From: a virus
IMG/VR virus record: IMGVR_UViG_3300032116_000365
Location: 1 to 46,245 of that record
Direction: 5' to 3' (one strand)
DNA: 46,245 nt
Under the pieces are notes generated by a model. That model ran no database searches. It was not told the origin of the DNA and was given only the letters and a program-made list of their open reading frames with translations. Below, in pieces: positions 2,159 through 42,538 of this stretch. The position numbers were made by a program, and so were the translations under genes. Each line of letters opens with the position of its first letter. Positions within the stretch are counted from its first letter, which is position 1.

Positions 2159-3064
2159 ATGATTACAACCACTTTCGGGGAGATGGTCGATGAGACTCTC
2201 GGCTACCTCCGGTCGTTCGTTCGAGATCAGGAACTGTCTACCCATCTGACGTCAGTTGTTCCGCACAATGCGTTCCGCATCGAGGTGGCTGACGGGACAG
2301 TCGTCAGCCGTGGTCGTGTTGAGATCGGTGAGGAACTGATCTGGATTGACAAGGTCGACAAGTCAACTGGCATCGCCGAGATCCCACCGTATGGGCGTGG
2401 CATGGATGGGACGAACCCTGCTCAGCATGAGCCGGGTACACGGGTCGTGAACTCTCCCCTGTACCCGCGCAAGATGGTGAAGGACACACTGAATCAGGCG
2501 ATCCGTCAGATTGGTGCCACCTTGTACGGGGTGGAGACCGTCGAAGTGACCGCTAAGTCAAACGACTTCAAGTACGAGATGCCGCAGGAGACTCGGGAGA
2601 TCCTCTCGGTCACCATGTCAGACACCACTGGCTATGCCAGTGATGTCGTGCACTTGCGGGACTACACGTTCGACAAGCAGGCACCGCTGCTGGATGGTAT
2701 CTCCACTGGCAAGGCCCTGTACCTGTACGACGGGTGGATCGGCTACCCGGCTCGGTTGAAGATCACGTTCAGCAGGGATCCTCTCCCGCTGTACCAGCCT
2801 TTCCAGTTCTTCTCGGAGACTCGACTGCCAGATTCAGCGTCGGACCTTCCGGTCCTCGCTGCGGCTGCACGCCTGCTGGCTGCGTCTGACACGTACGACA
2901 TCCAGACCCGCTCAGTGGAGGCGAACACTCTCGACTCCAAGGTGAGTTCGACGGCTGCACAGCAGCAGTCGAAGTACCTTCAGGCGCTGTACATGCAGCG
3001 GCTGGAGGAGGAGAAGTTGCGCCTGTTGAACACGTACTCGAACCGTACCCACTACCAGAGGTGA
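2159..3064 (+). CDS. Head-to-tail adaptor / tail tubular A-like protein
   Basis: This 301-residue protein starts at ATG 2159. It carries an early beta-rich segment with the motif PYGRGMDGTNPAQHEPGT, followed by a helical region around NQAIRQIGATLYG. A helical body with a beta insertion, placed just before two tail proteins, fits the adaptor or tail tubular A (T7 gp11-type) class in short-tailed phages. The match rests on architecture and context, not a searched alignment. The motif RGMDGT..A.HE.GT resembles RGYDGYTALPHGTG in the next gene, so the two may share a small beta domain. Confidence 0.5.
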   Translation: MITTTFGEMVDETLGYLRSFVRDQELSTHLTSVVPHNAFRIEVADGTVVSRGRVEIGEELIWIDKVDKSTGIAEIPPYGRGMDGTNPAQHEPGTRVVNSPLYPRKMVKDTLNQAIRQIGATLYGVETVEVTAKSNDFKYEMPQETREILSVTMSDTTGYASDVVHLRDYTFDKQAPLLDGISTGKALYLYDGWIGYPARLKITFSRDPLPLYQPFQFFSETRLPDSASDLPVLAAAARLLAASDTYDIQTRSVEANTLDSKVSSTAAQQQSKYLQALYMQRLEEEKLRLLNTYSNRTHYQR

Positions 3065-3068
3065 AGTG

Positions 3069-3437
3069 ATGGCTGCTCCGCACAACTACTCCAACACTGC
3101 TGTCGAGACCGAACTGACAGTGGATCTCGATGGCACCGCCACGGAGATCACTGTCGCCAAGTCAACGGGCTTCCCTTCGGTTCCGTTCACCCTGATCCTT
3201 AGCCCTGATGCCTCGAACGAGGAGGGCGTGCTGGTCACTGGCGCTATCAGTGCGACACGGTTCACTGTGCTGCGTGGGTACGACGGGTACACGGCTCTGC
3301 CGCATGGCACTGGGTCGAAGGTGAAGCACGGCGTGCTGGCTGAGGACTTCCGCCTCGCCAGCAGGGCTGCTCATCGGTTCGATGGTGTCACCGTGGTGAC
3401 GAAGGAAGCCGACACGTGGGGTGACCTTCTGTCATGA
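3069..3437 (+). CDS. Small beta-rich tail protein
   Basis: This 122-residue protein has its start placed at ATG 3069, five bases after GAGGTG. A GTG three bases earlier is possible. The core GVLVTGAISATRFTVLRGYD followed by TALPHGTGSKVKHG is a pattern repeatedly seen in small phage tail and base-plate beta domains (strand, RGxDGxxA, then H and a V-x-H strand). Its stop overlaps the next start (ATGA 3434-3437). It is likely a structural tail component; the exact role is unknown. Confidence 0.6.
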   Translation: MAAPHNYSNTAVETELTVDLDGTATEITVAKSTGFPSVPFTLILSPDASNEEGVLVTGAISATRFTVLRGYDGYTALPHGTGSKVKHGVLAEDFRLASRAAHRFDGVTVVTKEADTWGDLLS

Positions 3438-28995: not shown

Positions 28996-29150
28996 GCGAC
29001 ACCTCGTTCGTGAAGAACATCGCCGCTGGAGTCGACAGGATCGGACTCCAGAACACGCCCCTCATCTGGGCTCTGGCGAAGATGCCGTACCCCTCCGCTG
29101 AGGAGCGGGACGCCCTATTCGATGAGATCGGCGGTAACCAGAATGGTTAG
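28992..29150 (+). CDS. 52-residue hypothetical protein with TTG start
   Basis: TTG 28992 overlaps the previous stop; TAG 29148-29150 overlaps the next ATG (29143). The sequence FVKNIAAGVDRIGLQNTPLI and ERDALFDEIGGNQNG looks like a real helical protein and fills the space between two coupled genes. The function is unknown. Confidence 0.6.
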   Translation: MSDTSFVKNIAAGVDRIGLQNTPLIWALAKMPYPSAEERDALFDEIGGNQNG

Positions 29151-32100
29151 GCCCGCCGACGATTGGCGTGCAACCCTCCGCCCACCCGAGCCGGTGGTGG
29201 AAGAGGAGAAGGCGTGGTGGGAGACCGCCGTCGATACGGTCACCGACGCCGCTTCCACCGGCCTCGGCTTCATCATGGGGCGTTCGCAGGACATTGGCAC
29301 CGTCCAAGGTGCCGGGTTGCAGCACGCGGTCAACTCGATGACCCCGGTCGCTGCCTCCAATGGCAGGTTGACAACTGGTTCCACCTACGCCAAGCCGCTG
29401 GAAGATCCCCGCGTGCTCGGCGCTGGTGCCCGCCTCGGTGCCGACCTGCGCAATCCGGCCCTCTCCATCGCTGGCCCGGTCCTTGCTCCACTTGCCCTCA
29501 CCATCGCCGCCCTTGACACGGGCACCCGTGCTCTGAACACGGGCATTGGCGGCACCACGCTGCTGTATCAGGGCGCTATTGCGAACAACACCGGCCAGTT
29601 GGACAAGGCTGCGAACCCGCTTCTGCGTGACGGCTTCCAGCCCGAGGACGTCGTGCAGACGTTCAAGATGATGTGGGGTGGGGACGAAGCCGTCAAGGAC
29701 GGCTTCGGGAACGAGATCATCGACCCAGCAACGGGTCAGCCGGTGATGGTGCAGAATTCCGTGACCGCTGGTCAGGCGATCTCCCTCACGGTCGGTCGCT
29801 CCGCCCAGAACATGATCGACTTCGTGGTGCCGGGTGACCAGTGGGCCGAGTGGGACAAGGCCATCATCGCTGACACCAACGCTGCGCTGAAGGACCCGGC
29901 GAACAGCCGTGGCCTGTTCTCGTGGGCCTCCGGCCTGTATTCCGAGTTCGACATCTTCAACTACCACGAGCGCGAGTCAGCGTTCAACCAAGGCGCTGGC
30001 CGGTGGATCTCTGGTGCCTCTGACGCCGCGATTCAGTGGTACATCGGTGTCGATGTCATCGCCGCGAAGGTGGCTGGTCACGCTGGCCGCTCTCTGTTCA
30101 CACAGACCTTCGAGTCGCTGGGCGACCTCGACACCCTCGCCACGCAGACGGCACAGCACGCTGCGTGGAAGGCAGGGCAGGACGCCGCAGAGGTCACCCT
30201 CATCGACGGCACCGTGAAGACGGTGGAAGCGCAGCGCACAGCGGCTGGTCAACTCATGGAATCGCTCATGAAGTTGGACGCCAAGAAGGTCGCACGCCAC
30301 GAAGTGGCACGTGCGTCCAACAACGGGCTGCTGGTCTCCCGCGTGCTCGGCAACATCAAGGACTACGACACCATGGTGAAGGCGTTCCGCGCCTTCGCTG
30401 GTGACGTACAGGCCATGGACGAACTCTTCGCAGCGGACGCCATCGCGATGGACGCCCTGAAGATGCAGAAGAGCGAGATCGACCACTACCGGGCGATCTT
30501 CGACATGAAGCCTGAGCAGATGATGGGCTTCTCCGTTGGTGACGTGGCTGGGATGCAGGCGCGGGCTCGCGCCGCTGGCATCGACGAGGCAGCCATCGCC
30601 CAGATGGACGAGGTCTACCAGCAGGCAGTGAAGGAGAACGCACCGCTGCGCGGTGCCATCGAGGCTTTCGGTGGTCGCAACGCTGGCGTTTCCGACATCC
30701 AGTTCTCCGGGCTGCGCCTCTCGCGACTCCAGTACGGCCCCAACTCCGTGGCCCGGCTGGAAGCCAACGCAGAGAAGGCAGCGAACCGCGCCATCTCCGG
30801 TGGCAACTGGGCTGTCGGTTCGTACAAGGCTGGCGGGGCGTTCGGTCGTCCCATCATGGTGTTCAAGTCCTCCCTCGGCTACATGAAGACGATGCGCCAG
30901 AACGGCGTCGTCAACCTGTCCGACAACGGCGACGATGCACTCGACATCTTCGCCGAGGCGGACGCTATGTTCGGCGCGACCAAGATGTTCCGCGTCCTGT
31001 CCCGGCAGGGGACGGACGTCACCATGAAGGCTCGCAGCGCCGCTGATCAGGCCGAGGGCATCAAGGTCGAGACTGTCATCGAGTTCCGCGACGACTTCTA
31101 CCGTCGCATGGTGCAGGCCAAGAGTGCCAACGAGCGTCGCGCAGTGATGACGTGGTTCGAGAACCGGGCCATGGAGATCATGGCCGCGTACTACGGCATC
31201 GAGCGTCGTCAACTAGACGACATCGCAGCGAAGTACCGGGACACCAAGACCACCGTCGTGCACACGCTTCAGCGTCACGGCTGGTTCGACGACAACGGCA
31301 CCATCGTCGCCATGCCGGAGGCGAAGGTCGCACTGGATGATTTGGAACTCCAGTCCCAGATGGCAGAGAACTTCTACCTGATGGACTTCGACTGGCTGGA
31401 GAAGGTCGTCCGCATCGACAAGGGCTCGTTCTCCGCCAAGACCGGCAAGCGTGGTGACACCTTCGCTGGTGCGCTGGACGCCGTGTGGCGTCCGCTGGTC
31501 CTGATGCGTCTGGGCTACACCCAGCGCAACGTGGCTGAGGGTTGGCTGCGTGAACTCGCGTCCTACGGATCCATCGGAATGCTGGTGGATCGCAAGATGG
31601 GAACACGCGGCATCGACGAGTCCGACAAGGCTCTGCTCCGCTGGGGTCAGCAGGGTGGCCGTGCAATCGACCGCACCTTCGGCAACGCCAAGCGTCTCCT
31701 CACTCATGGCAGCCTGCGTCGCGCCGTGCGCGAACTTCAGGCTGGACAGGAGTCAGCCTCCAAGATCCACGCGACAGCAGTGGACAGCGAGCAGCGCCTC
31801 TCGGCGCTGGACGAGAAGATCGCTGCCCGTCGCGCGAAGGTGGAGAAGCAGGCCCGGATCGAGGAGACCGAGAACCGCCGCGACATCCACCACACCACGG
31901 CTGGTGCCGTGTGGGAGGACATCGACACGGAGTGGCGTGGCCGGGTGGACGATGCAATGCGTGGCGGCATGTCCGTCATCATCCCGCCCCGTTTCGTGGA
32001 GCCACTCACCAAGAAGCCACGGCGTGACCGTGTCAAGGTCACCGCGTTCACGGACGAGGAAGAGTCCTTCGCCGCTCAGGCCACCGCTGACGAGAACATC

Positions 32101-35100
32101 ACCTCGATGTTCGATGAGGTCGCTGGTGGTCCGGGCCAGTACAACGAACTGGCTGAGGCTGGCGACTACGACGAACTGGATGCTGGCTACTCAGCGTGGC
32201 TGAGTGCGTCGGAGAACCAGCAACTGCTGAACCTCCGCGCCCAGATAGATGCTGGGGCTGACGTCGGCCAGCAGGTCATCGACCTGTACAGCAGGGCGCA
32301 GTTCCGTGCAGCCGAGCGCGCAATGCGCGACGGCGACTACGTGGTGATCGTGAACGGCGACGGTTCCGTCTACCGTGTCCACGACCTGACCGATGTGGCT
32401 GTCGAGGACGTTGACGCTCTCGCCGTCATCAAGCAGGCGAACGCCAAGTACGCCACCCATGTACGGGCCACGGTGTACGGCGACATGCTGGACCTTCGCC
32501 CTCGTCAGATCACCCTCGAACAGGAGTCGCTGGACGCAGTCCGAGCGGCGACTGCTGAGGACGCGGTCTCCTTCCCCTACGGCGGGGCTGATCGGCAGGC
32601 TCTCGACAAGCACCTTGACTTGCTGTTCCAAGACTTGGGCATCGTCAGCACCCGCAGTTCCACTCTGGGGAAACTGGAGGAGATGCACCTCATCCTCGAC
32701 ATGGCCGAGAAGGATCCGTTCTTCAACGAACTCCTCGCATTCAACGCGATGATCAAGCGGCTTAGCATGACCAACCCGCAGATGGTGAAGTGGTTCGAGG
32801 ACAAGGGCCTGCTCATCGACTCGCACGTGGTGAAGTCCGTGGAGAAGATGCTGGCCCGTACACCCAAGAAGCAGAAGGAAGCGGAGGACGAGTACACCGC
32901 TGCCTACGACGAAATGTGGCAGAAGTTGCAGGATCCCGACTTCTGGCGGGACCTGCCTGAGGCCAACGACATCATGGAGTGGGGCTTCTCCTTCCACGGG
33001 GGTACCCGCATCCCGGGTGACCGGATCGCAATCATCCCGCCGAAGACGCAGGAAAACGTCGAGAACCTGCACGGCATGGGCTTCTACACGACGCAGGATC
33101 CCGGAGTGGCGGGCGAGTACATCCTGAACCGTGGCATCAGAGGCGACGGTGAACCTGTCATGTACATGGTTGCTCACGACCCGGAAGACGAGACCCGATT
33201 CCTCAATATGGATGAGGACTACTTCCCCGTCACGTTTGGGCTGGAGACTGACGCTGACTCGTGGGCTCTGGCCGACGAGATGCGCGGCATCTACGACGAC
33301 ATGGCTGAGTCCCTTGGGCTGGATGTCCGCGCCGATGACAACGTCTGGGGCGAGGTCGAAGAAATGATGCCGATGGCCGCTGCCGGTGAACTAAACGGGC
33401 AGGCGTACGACAATGGCATTGAGACCCTGCGGGTCGCCATGACCTACCACATATCCATCCACTACGCCGAGGCCAAGGGCCTGATCGGGGATGCAGCAGA
33501 CATCGCCAAAATAGGTCGCGGCGACGAACTTGCTGAGGACGGCCTGACTGTTGCCTACGACGTGCAGAAGGCGTGGATGGATGCGTTTGTGAAGCGCGGC
33601 CTTCTCGGCGTTCGGCATGAGGGTGGGTCGCGCACCGGGAACGAAGCCCACAACGTCTTCATCTGGTACGCCGAGCCTGACGATCTCGTCCCGATTGAGT
33701 CCCTGACTCAGGAGGCGATGGAGGTGCAGCGTCTTCGGAACCGCCTCCACGCCCTGAACGACAAGATCCGGACTGACAAGGGCAACCTGAAGATTCTGAA
33801 GAACGCCACCCCGTTCGATGCAGCACGCATGGACGCCTCCCGCATGGGCGACTTCCATATGCGTGCCATGACCCAGTACATGAACGAGTCGGGTCGCGGT
33901 GGAGTGTTTCTGCCTGACTCGGCTTCGCCTTCCGGCTACCGCCTCATTGTCAACCCTGACCGCATGTCGGTTGCCTCTGAGTCTGCCGACACGGTGCTGC
34001 CGTCCTCTCTGGTTGGTCGCGACTACGGCGACGACGTCGCTGACCAGATGTGGGGGGAGACCCTGAAGCAGAACACGCGAGTGTTCAGCGCGGAAGGGAT
34101 GCACCCGGGTGACCTGTACAACATGACCCGCAACGACGAGGTCTCGAAGTACCTCGCTGGCGAGACCAAGTCGCTGAGCAAGAAAGGTAAGGTTGCCCTC
34201 GCTCGGTGGATGGAGGTCAACAACCACACCCACGTGGCTACCGCCAAGGGTGAGACGAAGACAATCTCCGAACTCATCGGTGGGAAGCAGACCGGCTCCA
34301 TGTACGGGGCGATGCTCGACGCTGACGAGATCGCCCAGCGTCAGGTTTTCCTCGCCTCGCAGGACGACACGCTCCAGACCCTGCTGGCCGAGCGGTCTCA
34401 GGTGATGCAGGAAGCGCAGGCTGCACGTGGACGGCTGTCCAAGGCCGAGGAGGAGAACAAGGCTCTGGTCGCCAAGTTGGAGGCCCGCCTCGGCAAGCGT
34501 CGCGCCAAGGGTGGTCAGGTCAAGGCCAAGGTTGGCACAGGTGAGGAGCGGTTCCGCTCCCAGCACCTCGACGATGAACTAACTGTCAGCGGTCCCCTGT
34601 CTGACGCAGAGCAGGGCCAGATGTGGGCCACGCTGTCGGGCTCCGACCGCCGCGTGATGATGGATCTGATGGGCTACTCCGACCGGAACATGCGTCGTCT
34701 CCAGAAGACGACCGAGACGAAGAACTTCGTCCCCGGTGAGGACGGCTACTTCGAGGTCCTGTCCGAGCAGATCAACCGCTTCTGGCGTAACGACCCGGTC
34801 ATGCAGATGCTGCTGTCCGGGAAGACAGAAGACGAGGTCTTCGACGAACTGATGAAGACGGCCCGTGGTCGTGCATGGGTGCGGGATCAGGCTGGCGTGG
34901 ACATGGACAAGGACCTTATCGACGAGGACACGCTGTCCGAGGTCGCGGCAGAGTGGACTCGTGGAGCAATCGAGGAGTCCTCTTCTGTCATCAACGACTT
35001 TGTCCCAGACGGGGAGATGCGCGAGTTCCTCGCCAACAACGACGTCAGCCCGATGTGGCTGCGTCAGCAGTTGGGGTGGCGTGGGGATCTGCCCTCGATC

Positions 35101-37113
35101 CGTGGCTTCCGCTCCGTGCACAAGTCGCAGACGGAGTTCCGTGGCGTCACCTCTGCGGTGATGCACGCGCTGGGTACCGTGCCGGAGAACCACCTCGTGC
35201 GTCATCCGTTCTTCCGCGCCCGCTGGCGCGAGGAGATGCAGCGTCAGGTGGACCTGTTCGGCGAGCAGTTGGGGAAGAAGGGTGACTGGGACGGTCGCTT
35301 CACCGAGGAGCAGATCAGCCGGATGATGCACTCATCTAAGGCCTACGCCCTGAAGCAGACCAACGAGACCCTGTACTCGATCACACGCATGAGCACGCCT
35401 GCTCATGCCATGCGGTTCATCATGCCGTTCTACCCGGCGTGGTTCTCGTCGATGAAGTACTGGCTGGGCCGTGTCCCTGTGGAGAACCCGCAGAACATCG
35501 TCCGGTACGGCATGGTGTGGAACGCCCCGAACTCGATGGGCATGTACCAAGACGAGAACGGCCAGCCGGTCAAGAGCGCCAGCCAAGAGGGCAACGGCAT
35601 CCCAGCCTTCATCGAGAACCTGACCAGTAAGTGGACTGGTGCGGACGACGGCAACATGGTCATCCAGTTGACTCCCGCCATTGCCGAGAAGATGGCGTTC
35701 CTTACGGGTGGCAACTCCACCCTGTCCATCTCCAAGGGCAGCCTTGACGTGCTGCTTCAGGGTGAGACGTTCTTCATCCCCGGCCTTGGCCCGCTGGTTG
35801 CCATGCCGTCCAACTGGATTGCCTCGCTGAAGCCCGACTGGGCAACGACTCTGGAGACTGGCGAACTAACTGGCCCGCTCTACGACGCCATCCTCCCCTT
35901 CGGCCCCACCAAGGAGAAGGACTTCATCGACGCAGCCACGGAGGCTTGGACTCCGGCTGCGGTGCAGAGGGCCATTCAGGGCATGAGGGGCATGGACTCG
36001 GCGGCGTTCTCGAACGCCACCAACTCCATCTACCGGGACATGATTGTCGACTGGGAGATCAGTGGACGCACTGGCCCCACTCCGTCCTTCCTCGACGCTA
36101 CTGATCAAGCGTCAGACTTCTTCAAGTTCCGCATCGCCGTGTCCCTCACCTCGCCGACTGCTGTCGGCTTCCAGTCGAAGTACAAGTTCTACTCTGACGA
36201 GTGGCGCAGGATCGAGCGGAAGTTCTACGACCTTCAGGACTCCAACCCGAACGACCCGTCCATCAAGGACGGGGCGAACAAGGCTGCGCAGAACGAGTTC
36301 CTCACCATGTACGGTCCCCAGTTCTACGCCATGACTCAGAGCCTGTCCGGCTCTTCGTCTGGCATGGGTGCCAACGTCGGTGAGTTCAAGGAGTTCGACG
36401 CAAACCCTGAACTGATGGCTGGTCTGGCAAGCATCGGTGATGATGCGTCCTACATCACCATGGCTACTCGACCGTTCGCCAACGCCGGGAACGAAGAGGG
36501 CTTCGACCCGGCTGTGTACGCATGGCAGTTCAACCGCCACATCGAGGGTGCTCCGAACAAGACCATCAGGGCTGGTGCGACGAACCGTCGAGACATGATC
36601 CTCGATGTCCATGAGCAGGTTGGCTGGTACGAGTGGAACAAGATCAACGACCAGTTGGAACCGCTGTACGAGGCGAAGCAGATCTCCCATGACGTCTACA
36701 CCGAGGTGAAGCGTCAGGCCGCTCAGGCCATCGGCAAGCAGTACCCGGCGTGGTTCGTGGCCTACAACGATAGTAACGGCTCGCGTTCCATGGGGTCCGA
36801 CAAGGCACTGGACACGCTAGTCAACAACAAGCAGTGGATGGACTCTCACGGCGACACCACCTACGCCAAGTCGGTGGTGGAGTTCAAGTACAACCGGGAT
36901 GCCATCATCGCTGAACTCCAGCGTCGGGCCACGCTGCCCGACGGTTCGTCCAACATCGAGGCGAAGTCAAACGCGGACCTTGCTTTGGTCTACGAGGAGT
37001 TGGTCAAGTATTGCTCCTCGCTGGATCCCGGCGGTGACTTCATCAACATGCACTCACGGTTCTTCGGCTCTGACAAGTTGAAGGCCATTCCCGACAAGAA
37101 GTACGGAGGCTGA
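29143..37113 (+). CDS. Giant internal virion protein with ADP-ribosyltransferase-like module
   Basis: This 2656-residue protein has its start chosen at ATG 29143 (overlap with TAG); ATG 29122 would add seven residues. It is mostly helical with no signal peptide. Residues ~1275-1510 contain FSFHGG, GMGFYTTQDPGVAGEYI, GVRHEGG and HNVFIWYAEPDDLVPI, the order seen in ART-like domains of large polyvalent phage proteins. Residues ~2086-2110 hold the aromatic block MRFIMPFYPAWFSSMKYW. Its length and place among capsid genes suggest an ejected internal protein that helps DNA entry and may modify a host target. Confidence 0.7.
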   Translation: MVRPADDWRATLRPPEPVVEEEKAWWETAVDTVTDAASTGLGFIMGRSQDIGTVQGAGLQHAVNSMTPVAASNGRLTTGSTYAKPLEDPRVLGAGARLGADLRNPALSIAGPVLAPLALTIAALDTGTRALNTGIGGTTLLYQGAIANNTGQLDKAANPLLRDGFQPEDVVQTFKMMWGGDEAVKDGFGNEIIDPATGQPVMVQNSVTAGQAISLTVGRSAQNMIDFVVPGDQWAEWDKAIIADTNAALKDPANSRGLFSWASGLYSEFDIFNYHERESAFNQGAGRWISGASDAAIQWYIGVDVIAAKVAGHAGRSLFTQTFESLGDLDTLATQTAQHAAWKAGQDAAEVTLIDGTVKTVEAQRTAAGQLMESLMKLDAKKVARHEVARASNNGLLVSRVLGNIKDYDTMVKAFRAFAGDVQAMDELFAADAIAMDALKMQKSEIDHYRAIFDMKPEQMMGFSVGDVAGMQARARAAGIDEAAIAQMDEVYQQAVKENAPLRGAIEAFGGRNAGVSDIQFSGLRLSRLQYGPNSVARLEANAEKAANRAISGGNWAVGSYKAGGAFGRPIMVFKSSLGYMKTMRQNGVVNLSDNGDDALDIFAEADAMFGATKMFRVLSRQGTDVTMKARSAADQAEGIKVETVIEFRDDFYRRMVQAKSANERRAVMTWFENRAMEIMAAYYGIERRQLDDIAAKYRDTKTTVVHTLQRHGWFDDNGTIVAMPEAKVALDDLELQSQMAENFYLMDFDWLEKVVRIDKGSFSAKTGKRGDTFAGALDAVWRPLVLMRLGYTQRNVAEGWLRELASYGSIGMLVDRKMGTRGIDESDKALLRWGQQGGRAIDRTFGNAKRLLTHGSLRRAVRELQAGQESASKIHATAVDSEQRLSALDEKIAARRAKVEKQARIEETENRRDIHHTTAGAVWEDIDTEWRGRVDDAMRGGMSVIIPPRFVEPLTKKPRRDRVKVTAFTDEEESFAAQATADENITSMFDEVAGGPGQYNELAEAGDYDELDAGYSAWLSASENQQLLNLRAQIDAGADVGQQVIDLYSRAQFRAAERAMRDGDYVVIVNGDGSVYRVHDLTDVAVEDVDALAVIKQANAKYATHVRATVYGDMLDLRPRQITLEQESLDAVRAATAEDAVSFPYGGADRQALDKHLDLLFQDLGIVSTRSSTLGKLEEMHLILDMAEKDPFFNELLAFNAMIKRLSMTNPQMVKWFEDKGLLIDSHVVKSVEKMLARTPKKQKEAEDEYTAAYDEMWQKLQDPDFWRDLPEANDIMEWGFSFHGGTRIPGDRIAIIPPKTQENVENLHGMGFYTTQDPGVAGEYILNRGIRGDGEPVMYMVAHDPEDETRFLNMDEDYFPVTFGLETDADSWALADEMRGIYDDMAESLGLDVRADDNVWGEVEEMMPMAAAGELNGQAYDNGIETLRVAMTYHISIHYAEAKGLIGDAADIAKIGRGDELAEDGLTVAYDVQKAWMDAFVKRGLLGVRHEGGSRTGNEAHNVFIWYAEPDDLVPIESLTQEAMEVQRLRNRLHALNDKIRTDKGNLKILKNATPFDAARMDASRMGDFHMRAMTQYMNESGRGGVFLPDSASPSGYRLIVNPDRMSVASESADTVLPSSLVGRDYGDDVADQMWGETLKQNTRVFSAEGMHPGDLYNMTRNDEVSKYLAGETKSLSKKGKVALARWMEVNNHTHVATAKGETKTISELIGGKQTGSMYGAMLDADEIAQRQVFLASQDDTLQTLLAERSQVMQEAQAARGRLSKAEEENKALVAKLEARLGKRRAKGGQVKAKVGTGEERFRSQHLDDELTVSGPLSDAEQGQMWATLSGSDRRVMMDLMGYSDRNMRRLQKTTETKNFVPGEDGYFEVLSEQINRFWRNDPVMQMLLSGKTEDEVFDELMKTARGRAWVRDQAGVDMDKDLIDEDTLSEVAAEWTRGAIEESSSVINDFVPDGEMREFLANNDVSPMWLRQQLGWRGDLPSIRGFRSVHKSQTEFRGVTSAVMHALGTVPENHLVRHPFFRARWREEMQRQVDLFGEQLGKKGDWDGRFTEEQISRMMHSSKAYALKQTNETLYSITRMSTPAHAMRFIMPFYPAWFSSMKYWLGRVPVENPQNIVRYGMVWNAPNSMGMYQDENGQPVKSASQEGNGIPAFIENLTSKWTGADDGNMVIQLTPAIAEKMAFLTGGNSTLSISKGSLDVLLQGETFFIPGLGPLVAMPSNWIASLKPDWATTLETGELTGPLYDAILPFGPTKEKDFIDAATEAWTPAAVQRAIQGMRGMDSAAFSNATNSIYRDMIVDWEISGRTGPTPSFLDATDQASDFFKFRIAVSLTSPTAVGFQSKYKFYSDEWRRIERKFYDLQDSNPNDPSIKDGANKAAQNEFLTMYGPQFYAMTQSLSGSSSGMGANVGEFKEFDANPELMAGLASIGDDASYITMATRPFANAGNEEGFDPAVYAWQFNRHIEGAPNKTIRAGATNRRDMILDVHEQVGWYEWNKINDQLEPLYEAKQISHDVYTEVKRQAAQAIGKQYPAWFVAYNDSNGSRSMGSDKALDTLVNNKQWMDSHGDTTYAKSVVEFKYNRDAIIAELQRRATLPDGSSNIEAKSNADLALVYEELVKYCSSLDPGGDFINMHSRFFGSDKLKAIPDKKYGG

Positions 37114-41289: not shown

Positions 41290-41811
41290 ATGAGCGACGG
41301 CAGGCGCATCATCATCTTCCTTGTGGCCCTGATTGGCTTGCTGTCCCTGACGCTGGTGGCGGCTGTCGTGGCTAATGCTGGGGTGTGGCTTCAGCAGTAC
41401 GGCAAGGCTGAGGGTGTGGCTTGTGACGAGGGCTGGTCTGAGTCGTGGGCGATGTGGGTAAACGACGGCACGGGTGGTTTCGTCTGCACCCGTGAAGTGG
41501 ACGACCCGTCGCAGCCCGTCCCGGCTGCTGCCGAGCCTGCCGCTCCCGCGCCCACGACGTACGTTTGGGTTTACGGTGGCGACTTCACCCTCCCAGCAAA
41601 CTACGGCCCCGGCTCGAACCGCTTAGCCTTCAACATTTGCAGCGCCCACACATCAGGCCTCTACACTGGCAACCCGAGGGCGATGAGGGTCAACCAGCCC
41701 ACCTCCGTGGTGGCGTTCTCCTACAATGCCACGACCCGCGTGTACACTCTCCAAAATCTCACGGCGTCCGTTGTTGTTGCAGGCGCTGAACTTGAGTGTG
41801 AAGTCTTGTGA
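41290..41811 (+). CDS. Membrane-anchored protein after the lysin
   Basis: This 173-residue protein starts at ATG 41290 after AAAGGG. Residues 7-33 (IIIFLVALIGLLSLTLVAAV...) form one membrane helix preceded by Arg residues, so the rest should be outside. The exported part has a Pro/Ala linker (VPAAAEPAAPAP) and a beta-rich end with four Cys overall. Its position suggests a holin/spanin-like or surface role; only one helix makes a classical holin less likely. Confidence 0.6.
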   Translation: MSDGRRIIIFLVALIGLLSLTLVAAVVANAGVWLQQYGKAEGVACDEGWSESWAMWVNDGTGGFVCTREVDDPSQPVPAAAEPAAPAPTTYVWVYGGDFTLPANYGPGSNRLAFNICSAHTSGLYTGNPRAMRVNQPTSVVAFSYNATTRVYTLQNLTASVVVAGAELECEVL

Positions 41812-41930
41812 AACTTCCACGAGTTCACGAACCCATCTGGTGCGCCGACGTCGTACGAGATGGAAGTCGAGTGCCCCTGACCTCTAGTTCCCCGTTAGGC
41901 GGGGGTGGATTGGATTCGACAGACTTCTAG
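41808..41930 (+). CDS. Possible 40-codon frame running into the tmRNA-like gene
   Basis: GTG 41808 overlaps the previous stop (GTGA) and the frame (LPRVHEPIWCADVVRDGSRV...) ends at TAG 41928-41930, inside the tmRNA-like sequence. The only support is the coupled start. If translated, ribosomes would pass through the 5' half of the RNA structure. Confidence 0.25.
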   Translation: MKLPRVHEPIWCADVVRDGSRVPLTSSSPLGGGGLDSTDF

Positions 41931-41980
41931 AACCCCACGAGGGAAGAGTCTGGACCCCGGTTCGATTCCGGGCACCTCCA
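41901..41980 (+). ncRNA. tmRNA-like RNA reduced to its tRNA-like domain
   Basis: Acceptor stem GGGGGTG (41901-41907) pairs with CACCTCC (41973-41979) and includes a G3-U70 pair, the alanyl-tRNA synthetase identity element; A41980 is the discriminator. GGATTCGAC (41912-41920) is the conserved D-loop-type segment of tmRNA, GGAC (41952-41955) the conserved linker, and CCCGG-TTCGATT-CCGGG (41956-41972) a perfect T arm. Where normal tmRNA holds ~250 nt of tag message and pseudoknots, this has a 6-bp stem CAGACT/AGTCTG (41920-41925, 41947-41952) with an inner CCC-ACGA-GGG hairpin. CCA would be added after transcription. It could be charged with Ala and bind SmpB but carries no tag. Confidence 0.75.
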
Positions 41981-42103: not shown

Positions 42104-42538
42104 ATGACTGGCACCGAGTACAACCTGTTCGACGAGTCTGACAACTCTTCGGATCTTCCGAAGAAGTTGCGGGCCAAGATCAAGGAACTTCAGGACTCGC
42201 TCGATGAGGCCAATGGCCGCATCAGTGAGTACACGCAGCGTGACCGCACCGAGTCCATCGGACAGGTGCTTCAGCGTTACAACCTGAACCCGAAGATCGC
42301 CGACCTCGTACCCAAGGACATTGAGGGCGAAGCCCTCGATCAGTGGGTCGCGGACTACGCCGACGTGTTCGGTGTCACCCCGCCTGCACAGCAGGCTTCA
42401 CAGCCTGCTTACGCGGGCGACGTCAATCGGATGGCCGCTCTTGAGCAGAGCGGGCAGCCCTCAGTAGCGATGAACGATCTTGCACAGATCGAGCAGATGT
42501 CGCCTGAGGAACTGCTTGCGATGCTCGGCGGTCGCTAA
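42104..42538 (+). CDS. Scaffolding protein
   Basis: This 144-residue protein starts at ATG 42104. It is acidic and helical, with a coiled-coil segment (KLRAKIKELQDSLDEANGRI), a central helix pair and a C-terminal ALEQSGQ...ELLAMLGGR. These features, and its position directly before the major capsid gene, fit a capsid scaffold. It would guide prohead assembly and then leave. Confidence 0.8.
   Translation: MTGTEYNLFDESDNSSDLPKKLRAKIKELQDSLDEANGRISEYTQRDRTESIGQVLQRYNLNPKIADLVPKDIEGEALDQWVADYADVFGVTPPAQQASQPAYAGDVNRMAALEQSGQPSVAMNDLAQIEQMSPEELLAMLGGR

Follow-up and report, generated by a model that had tools for sequence, protein, structure and literature searches.

Comparative sequence analysis points to a widespread family of phage tmRNAs reduced to the tRNA-like domain

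A virus contig from IMG/VR, analyzed here as a single stretch of 46,245 bases (the window), carries an 80-nt gene for a tmRNA that retains the tRNA-like domain (TLD) and has no tag message. Judging from sequence comparison, this mini-tmRNA is a member of a family that is widespread in phages, large, diverse, and maintained by selection. On balance, we think it probable that mini-tmRNAs are processed, alanylated, SmpB-binding RNAs that compete with host tmRNA and block or divert trans-translation, a reading that draws on their sequence features and on analogy with a similar molecule. The window element consists of the following parts.

41901 to 41980, plus strand: TLD-only tmRNA (mini-tmRNA) gene, 80 nt, recognized by RF00023 and by covariance model R1
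41901 to 41907, plus strand: 5' strand of the acceptor stem, GGGGGTG, forming 7 of 7 pairs with 41973 to 41979, including G3-U70
41912 to 41920, plus strand: GGATTCGAC, tmRNA D-loop-like segment, assigned by sequence, with the TTCGAC of the search motif
41921 to 41951, plus strand: P2 stem-loop, AGACTT/GAGTCT (6 bp), enclosing CTAGAA and the hairpin CCC-CACGA-GGG
41921 to 41926 and 41946 to 41951, plus strand: the two strands of the 6-bp P2 stem
41933 to 41943, plus strand: inner hairpin, 3 bp
41952 to 41955, plus strand: GGAC linker, 5' of the T arm, assigned by sequence, within the search motif
41956 to 41972, plus strand: T arm, CCCGG-TTCGATT-CCGGG, 5 bp
41973 to 41980, plus strand: 3' strand of the acceptor stem, CACCTCC, and discriminator A73 (41980)

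From 5' to 3', the element reads GGGGGTG GATT GGATTCGAC AGACTT CTAGAA CCC CACGA GGG AA GAGTCT, followed by GGAC CCCGG TTCGATT CCGGG CACCTCC A. All features that the initial annotation had placed in this segment, along with their coordinates, were recovered in a check of the sequence, including a G-C fifth acceptor pair (GGGGGTG/CACCTCC) in place of the C-G typical of tmRNA acceptors, with pairing preserved. The central claim of that annotation, that this is a tmRNA stripped to its tRNA-like domain, is well supported: Rfam and a covariance model both recognize the element, and dozens of distinct relatives show covariation. In the Rfam search, positions 41901 to 41980 of the plus strand matched tmRNA (RF00023) at 67.5 bits (gathering threshold, 47; E value, 2.9e-24), the match spanning model positions 1 to 374 with 290 positions deleted. 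This was the sole Rfam match in the window and the only tmRNA-like site in the whole virus record. Model R1, built from 25 other members of the family, gave the window element 73.4 bits (E value, 5.5e-15). The 290 missing positions include the tag reading frame and the pseudoknots, and none of the frames inspected inside the 80-nt element made a convincing tag. The tRNA-like domain is complete, with the G3-U70 acceptor, the TTCGAC segment, the T arm, and A73; CCA is not encoded, and the next three bases on the 3' side are CAC.

ARAGORN called neither a tRNA nor a tmRNA at the window element, and its folding as a single sequence was not significant (z = -1.2); in the minimum-energy fold, GGATTCGAC pairs with the T loop and the T arm is lost. 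Because single-sequence folding is not decisive, the case for the window element rests on comparison. Two other identities were considered and rejected. An ordinary tRNA-Ala does not fit an element that has no D stem and no anticodon and in which ARAGORN finds no tRNA; with model R1, no phage tRNA-Ala gene exceeds 30 bits. A permuted two-piece tmRNA does not fit the standard order of the parts, nor P2 strands that a short loop holds together within a single molecule. Just upstream, a hairpin CCCCG-TTAGG-CGGGG (41890 to 41904) would compete for the acceptor strand; it is not conserved in the relatives compared.

Model R1 comprises 25 members with linkers of equal length, chosen because aligning the whole family with MAFFT put the acceptor strand out of register. 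A covariance search with this model separated the remaining members, which scored at least 41 bits, from phage tRNAs, which reached at most 35 bits, and 23 of 25 held-out loci scored above 48 bits. In an alignment of 82 distinct sequences, which was fitted to the model and is biased in its favor, 96.8% of the paired cells were complementary compared with 65% in shuffles, and this value fell to 42 to 51% when the partners were slid by 1 to 3 columns. The covariation score was 0.702 compared with 0.136 in shuffles, and double changes were seen at 17 of the 22 pairs. By helix, pairing was 99.7% in the acceptor, 92.8% in helix 2 (P2; double changes at 7 of 7 pairs), 93% in helix 3 (the inner hairpin), and 100% in helix 4 (the T arm; double changes at 3 pairs). 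As seen in alignment A1, P2 encloses a purine-rich bulge, often containing AAA, together with a short, small-looped hairpin, and the GG ahead of the TTCGAC segment is nearly invariant.

The 3-70 pair is G-U in 81 of the 82 distinct sequences, while the next three acceptor pairs (4 to 6) change freely and in a compensatory manner. G3-U70 is the identity signal for alanyl-tRNA synthetase (AlaRS), and since the wobble is so tightly kept next to freely varying pairs, its near-invariance is best explained by selection for that signal. Selection for alanylation is thus supported at the sequence level.

IMG/VR was scanned with the motif TTCGAC-N15..45-GGAC-NNN-GGTTCRANTCC, which requires neither the acceptor stem nor G3-U70. 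It matched at least 119 stretches; among the matches listed, 113 of 119 had a perfect 7-bp acceptor at the correct distance, and all 113 of these had G3-U70. A control in which a single base of the motif was altered (TTCGTC) matched 23 stretches, none of which had a perfect acceptor (0/23). A complete scan for the TTCAA subset returned 48 matches, 23 of which were among the first 119, so that the total can be estimated at about 250 (119 x 48/23). With identical sequences removed, about 100 distinct sequences remain among the matches listed; A73 is present in 103 of 104 distinct sequences, and roughly one member in four encodes CCA (both among the matches listed). Most phage records with a mini-tmRNA have exactly one copy. 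Most of the family lacks annotation, since nearly all of its members escape ARAGORN. A scan of bacterial genomes gave 67 matches, of which nine appear to be true mini-tmRNAs; most of the 67 are full tmRNAs matched at the 3' end, in which TTCGAC occurs again.

Several loci depart from the common pattern. Two mini-tmRNA copies are found in each of two phage loci (L066, 5 to 81 and 1317 to 1392; L249, 1565 to 1638 and 5111 to 5183). The 595-kb uncultured phage LR756511 carries a 134-nt form (L218, 511 to 644) with an intact TLD and P2, a 71-nt insert, and no clear tag; its length falls between those of mini- and full tmRNAs. In the genome of Cellulosimicrobium cellulans, a mini-tmRNA (L168, 568 to 646) adjoins tRNA genes and lies about 28.5 kb from the host's full tmRNA, near smpB, on the same contig; it may perhaps belong to a prophage integrated at ssrA.

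Nine cultured phages carry a mini-tmRNA, and in none of the nine is it annotated as an RNA. Seven infect Streptomyces (LuckySocke, GiJojo, pSt2308, Alone3, BRock, Riptide, and Shaeky); the others are the Pontimonas phage phiPsal1, with the mini-tmRNA directly 5' of the major capsid protein (MCP) gene, and Stenotrophomonas virus Jojan60. GiJojo gene 44 (L203, 1499 to 1741), annotated as a hypothetical protein, overlaps the mini-tmRNA and is probably a misannotation. In Riptide (PV654398; L195, 5977 to 6053, and L206, 1863 to 2129), about 11.5 kb separates a mini-tmRNA from a full-length tmRNA that encodes the tag ANSKFAFALAA. In Alone3 (L209, 287 to 363), the TTCGAC segment is altered to GCACGAC and the T arm has two mismatches, whereas the copies in close relatives are intact; this mini-tmRNA is perhaps decaying or escaping. 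Milly, Oscar, GMA2, S-CAM1, cr50_1, and IME-SM1 were rejected as carriers, their matches being attP fragments or full or other tmRNAs. The tmRNA 3'-end fragments of Milly and Oscar (L212 and L213, both 2501 to 2531) adjoin tyrosine integrases and resemble attP sites for ssrA. Full-length phage tmRNAs, such as that of Gilson, are annotated and clearly different from the mini-tmRNAs.

The genomic setting of the family is varied. In 62 nonredundant loci listed, the downstream neighbor is a major head protein in 8 cases, a DnaB-type helicase family member in 6, and a portal protein in 4; the upstream neighbors include the head maturation protease (7/68) and terminase (5/68) among the matches listed. 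The element occupies same-strand gaps between protease and MCP genes and between TerL and portal genes, and in the protease/MCP group it stays in place even though the MCPs diverge to 44% identity. Among the matches listed, 25 elements have a tRNA gene within 500 nt, on the same strand in 23 of them, and 8 have one within 20 nt, including spacings of 0 and 1 nt. Such tight same-strand packing implies that the mini-tmRNAs are excised by tRNA-processing enzymes. No SmpB gene was found in the 44 phage records searched, so that the SmpB used would be that of the host.

In the window, the element sits in a 292-nt gap, and the genes around it are as follows.

41290 to 41811, plus strand: upstream open reading frame (ORF), 173 aa, with no PHROG match
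42104 to 42538, plus strand: downstream gene, phrog_7813, scaffold-like by position, syntenic in contigs L122 and L123
42566 to 43906, plus strand: major head protein, phrog_1357, with relatives in Streptomyces phages

The head protein shares 28 to 29% identity with its counterparts in Immanuel3/Abafar-type podoviruses of Streptomyces; in Immanuel3 and Abafar, the slot that the mini-tmRNA fills in the window, immediately 5' of the scaffold-like gene and the MCP gene, is occupied by 14 to 22 tRNA genes. A nucleotide search with the window neighborhood against isolated phages gave no match. The nearest virus contigs found, L122 and L123 (MCP 50% identical), have neither the mini-tmRNA nor the 173-aa ORF. 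Two outcomes in relatives had been named in advance as telling against the element: unpaired decay is contradicted across the family, but absence is what these two contigs show. Given this absence and the tRNA genes that fill the same slot in Immanuel3 and Abafar, the window mini-tmRNA is, as its distribution indicates, an accessory tRNA-like gene, gained and lost over time, rather than a permanent control site in the late operon. Elsewhere in the window, an ORF of 2,663 aa (29122 to 37113, plus strand) precedes the late genes, and a lone predicted tRNA-Val (cac) at 3023 to 3096 on the minus strand, which lies across the boundary of two plus-strand ORFs, is possibly a false call.

Observation covers the sequence and structure of the mini-tmRNAs, their covariation, the elements of alanine identity, and their distribution and genomic context. 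Transcription, processing, charging, SmpB binding, an inhibitory outcome, and any benefit to the phage are inferred. In the window phage, the mini-tmRNA would be transcribed with the late operon and matured by RNase P, RNase Z, and CCA addition by the host; host AlaRS would charge it with alanine, and host SmpB and EF-Tu would bind it. Made in quantity, it would most likely occupy SmpB and stalled ribosomes, so that host trans-translation would be blocked or diverted. With no tag frame, the mini-tmRNA cannot complete trans-translation itself. Inhibition by competition for SmpB and stalled ribosomes would be the simplest outcome and, by analogy, the only one with experimental precedent; the decoy proposed in the initial annotation may likewise appeal to the precedent of a DS6A-like molecule, and overall that interpretation is partly supported.

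Some observations count against simple blockade. Charging would be dispensable for a pure SmpB decoy, inhibition being reported for chargeable and unchargeable forms alike, and the near-invariance of G3-U70 hints that the RNA takes an active part on the ribosome. So strict an alanine identity suggests that the mini-tmRNA reaches peptide transfer, which would either leave the ribosome jammed or free it with no tag added. Riptide has a full tmRNA as well as the mini-tmRNA, which fits poorly with the simplest form of blockade. The main reading also has to accommodate the nearest relatives of the window phage, which have no element, and the single-sequence fold, which is partly different. A rival reading, which we regard as unlikely, is that alanylated mini-tmRNA enters the stalled ribosome with SmpB and EF-Tu, takes over the nascent chain onto its alanine, and frees the mRNA without adding a degradation tag; release would follow via another factor, the ribosomes would be recovered, and phage proteins would be spared tagging. 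We know of no release step for such a complex on the ribosome. The near-invariant alanine identity (G3-U70 in 81 of 82 sequences, and A73) and the placement of the elements in late structural operons and tRNA arrays agree with tag-free rescue, as do the message-less mitochondrial tmRNAs that are retained with SmpB (PMC11915505), but the sole reported experiment on such a molecule, as relayed in PMC4131195, resulted in tmRNA inhibition.

A processing signal for the late mRNA, raised in the initial annotation as well, is another rival: acting in cis, the tRNA-like fold would be cut by RNase P or RNase Z so that parts of the late mRNA are separated or stabilized, leaving the excised RNA idle. TTCGAC, GGAC, P2, and G3-U70 are tmRNA features for which we know of no need in RNase P/Z processing. 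The same-strand operon gaps (e.g., protease/MCP and TerL/portal) and the 292-nt gap ahead of the window's scaffold-like and MCP genes are what such a signal would predict, but other elements lie within tRNA arrays or precede genes for DnaB-type helicases, and ordinary tRNAs would suffice. With its varied settings and retained tmRNA-specific features, the element is disfavored as a processing signal in its main function, and we consider this explanation quite improbable. Phages integrate at tmRNA genes, and the attP-like tmRNA 3' ends beside the integrases of Milly and Oscar might suggest a decaying gene fragment, such as a remnant of ssrA integration; this is extremely improbable, as both ends are present, compensatory pairing is kept in 82 distinct sequences, the attP fragments give no match with model R1, and the covariation contradicts decay. 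There is a slim chance that the mini-tmRNA serves as bait or a spare substrate for a host antiphage nuclease that attacks tmRNA or tRNA. Its accessory distribution, the RNA ligase and Ro-like RNA-binding genes that adjoin the mini-tmRNA gene in isolates, and the CoCoNuT restriction systems predicted to contact tmRNA via SmpB-like folds (PMC11090510) would fit, but near-invariant alanine identity is not obviously required of a bait.

Competition with host tmRNA remains our preferred function for the mini-tmRNA. The size and diversity of the family suggest that blocking or rerouting trans-translation is a common phage strategy. In a bolder version, which we put forward as speculation and deem rather unlikely, message-less, alanine-charged tmRNAs would be a general viral tool in hundreds of unrelated phages that, beyond soaking up SmpB, would rescue ribosomes without a tag and so protect either the proteins of the phage or the translation of its late mRNA. 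The reason for the interest of phages in trans-translation is now testable with cultured phages and such laboratory hosts as Streptomyces lividans.

TLD-only phage tmRNA is already known as a kind, and the window element is newly added to it. The tmRNA of mycobacteriophage DS6A has been listed as "TLD only" (Hudson et al. 2014, PMC4131195), a statement repeated by Nawrocki et al. 2025 (PMC11915505); a similar molecule, chargeable or not, strongly inhibited tmRNA in E. coli, perhaps by SmpB titration, according to Mao et al. 2009 as summarized in PMC4131195. Like the mini-tmRNAs, the DS6A gene, known here by description only, is a phage gene of little more than the TLD, but it represents a single phage, whereas the mini-tmRNA family is found in many unrelated phages. 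The 2025 tmRNA database of 97,179 sequences includes 79 from phages and, in the set as a whole, only 9 one-piece forms classed as "standard, no CDS" (PMC11915505). The mini-tmRNAs share with RF00023 the G3-U70 acceptor, GGNTTCGAC, GGAC, and the T arm in tmRNA order; they differ in having no tag frame or pseudoknots, in a P2 closed by a small hairpin, and in size (about 80 compared with about 350 nt). The message-less tmRNAs of some mitochondria and of Mallomonadaceae plastids (about 65 bp) likewise consist of the tRNA-like domain without a tag frame, and the message-less mitochondrial ones are kept alongside SmpB and suspected of aiding with incomplete mRNAs (PMC11915505). However, these organellar forms stem from reductive evolution of the organelle's own tmRNA, whereas the mini-tmRNA is a viral gene beside a complete host tmRNA. 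The full tmRNAs of Bxz1, Wildcat, Gilson, and Riptide are also phage genes, often located among tRNA genes, but they encode a tag and could in principle complete trans-translation, in contrast to the tagless mini-tmRNAs. In the open-license literature searched, we found no prior report of the breadth of the family or of selection on its alanine identity. The apparent novelty lies in how large the family is, in its occurrence across independent lineages and genomic slots, and in the selection acting on its alanine identity.
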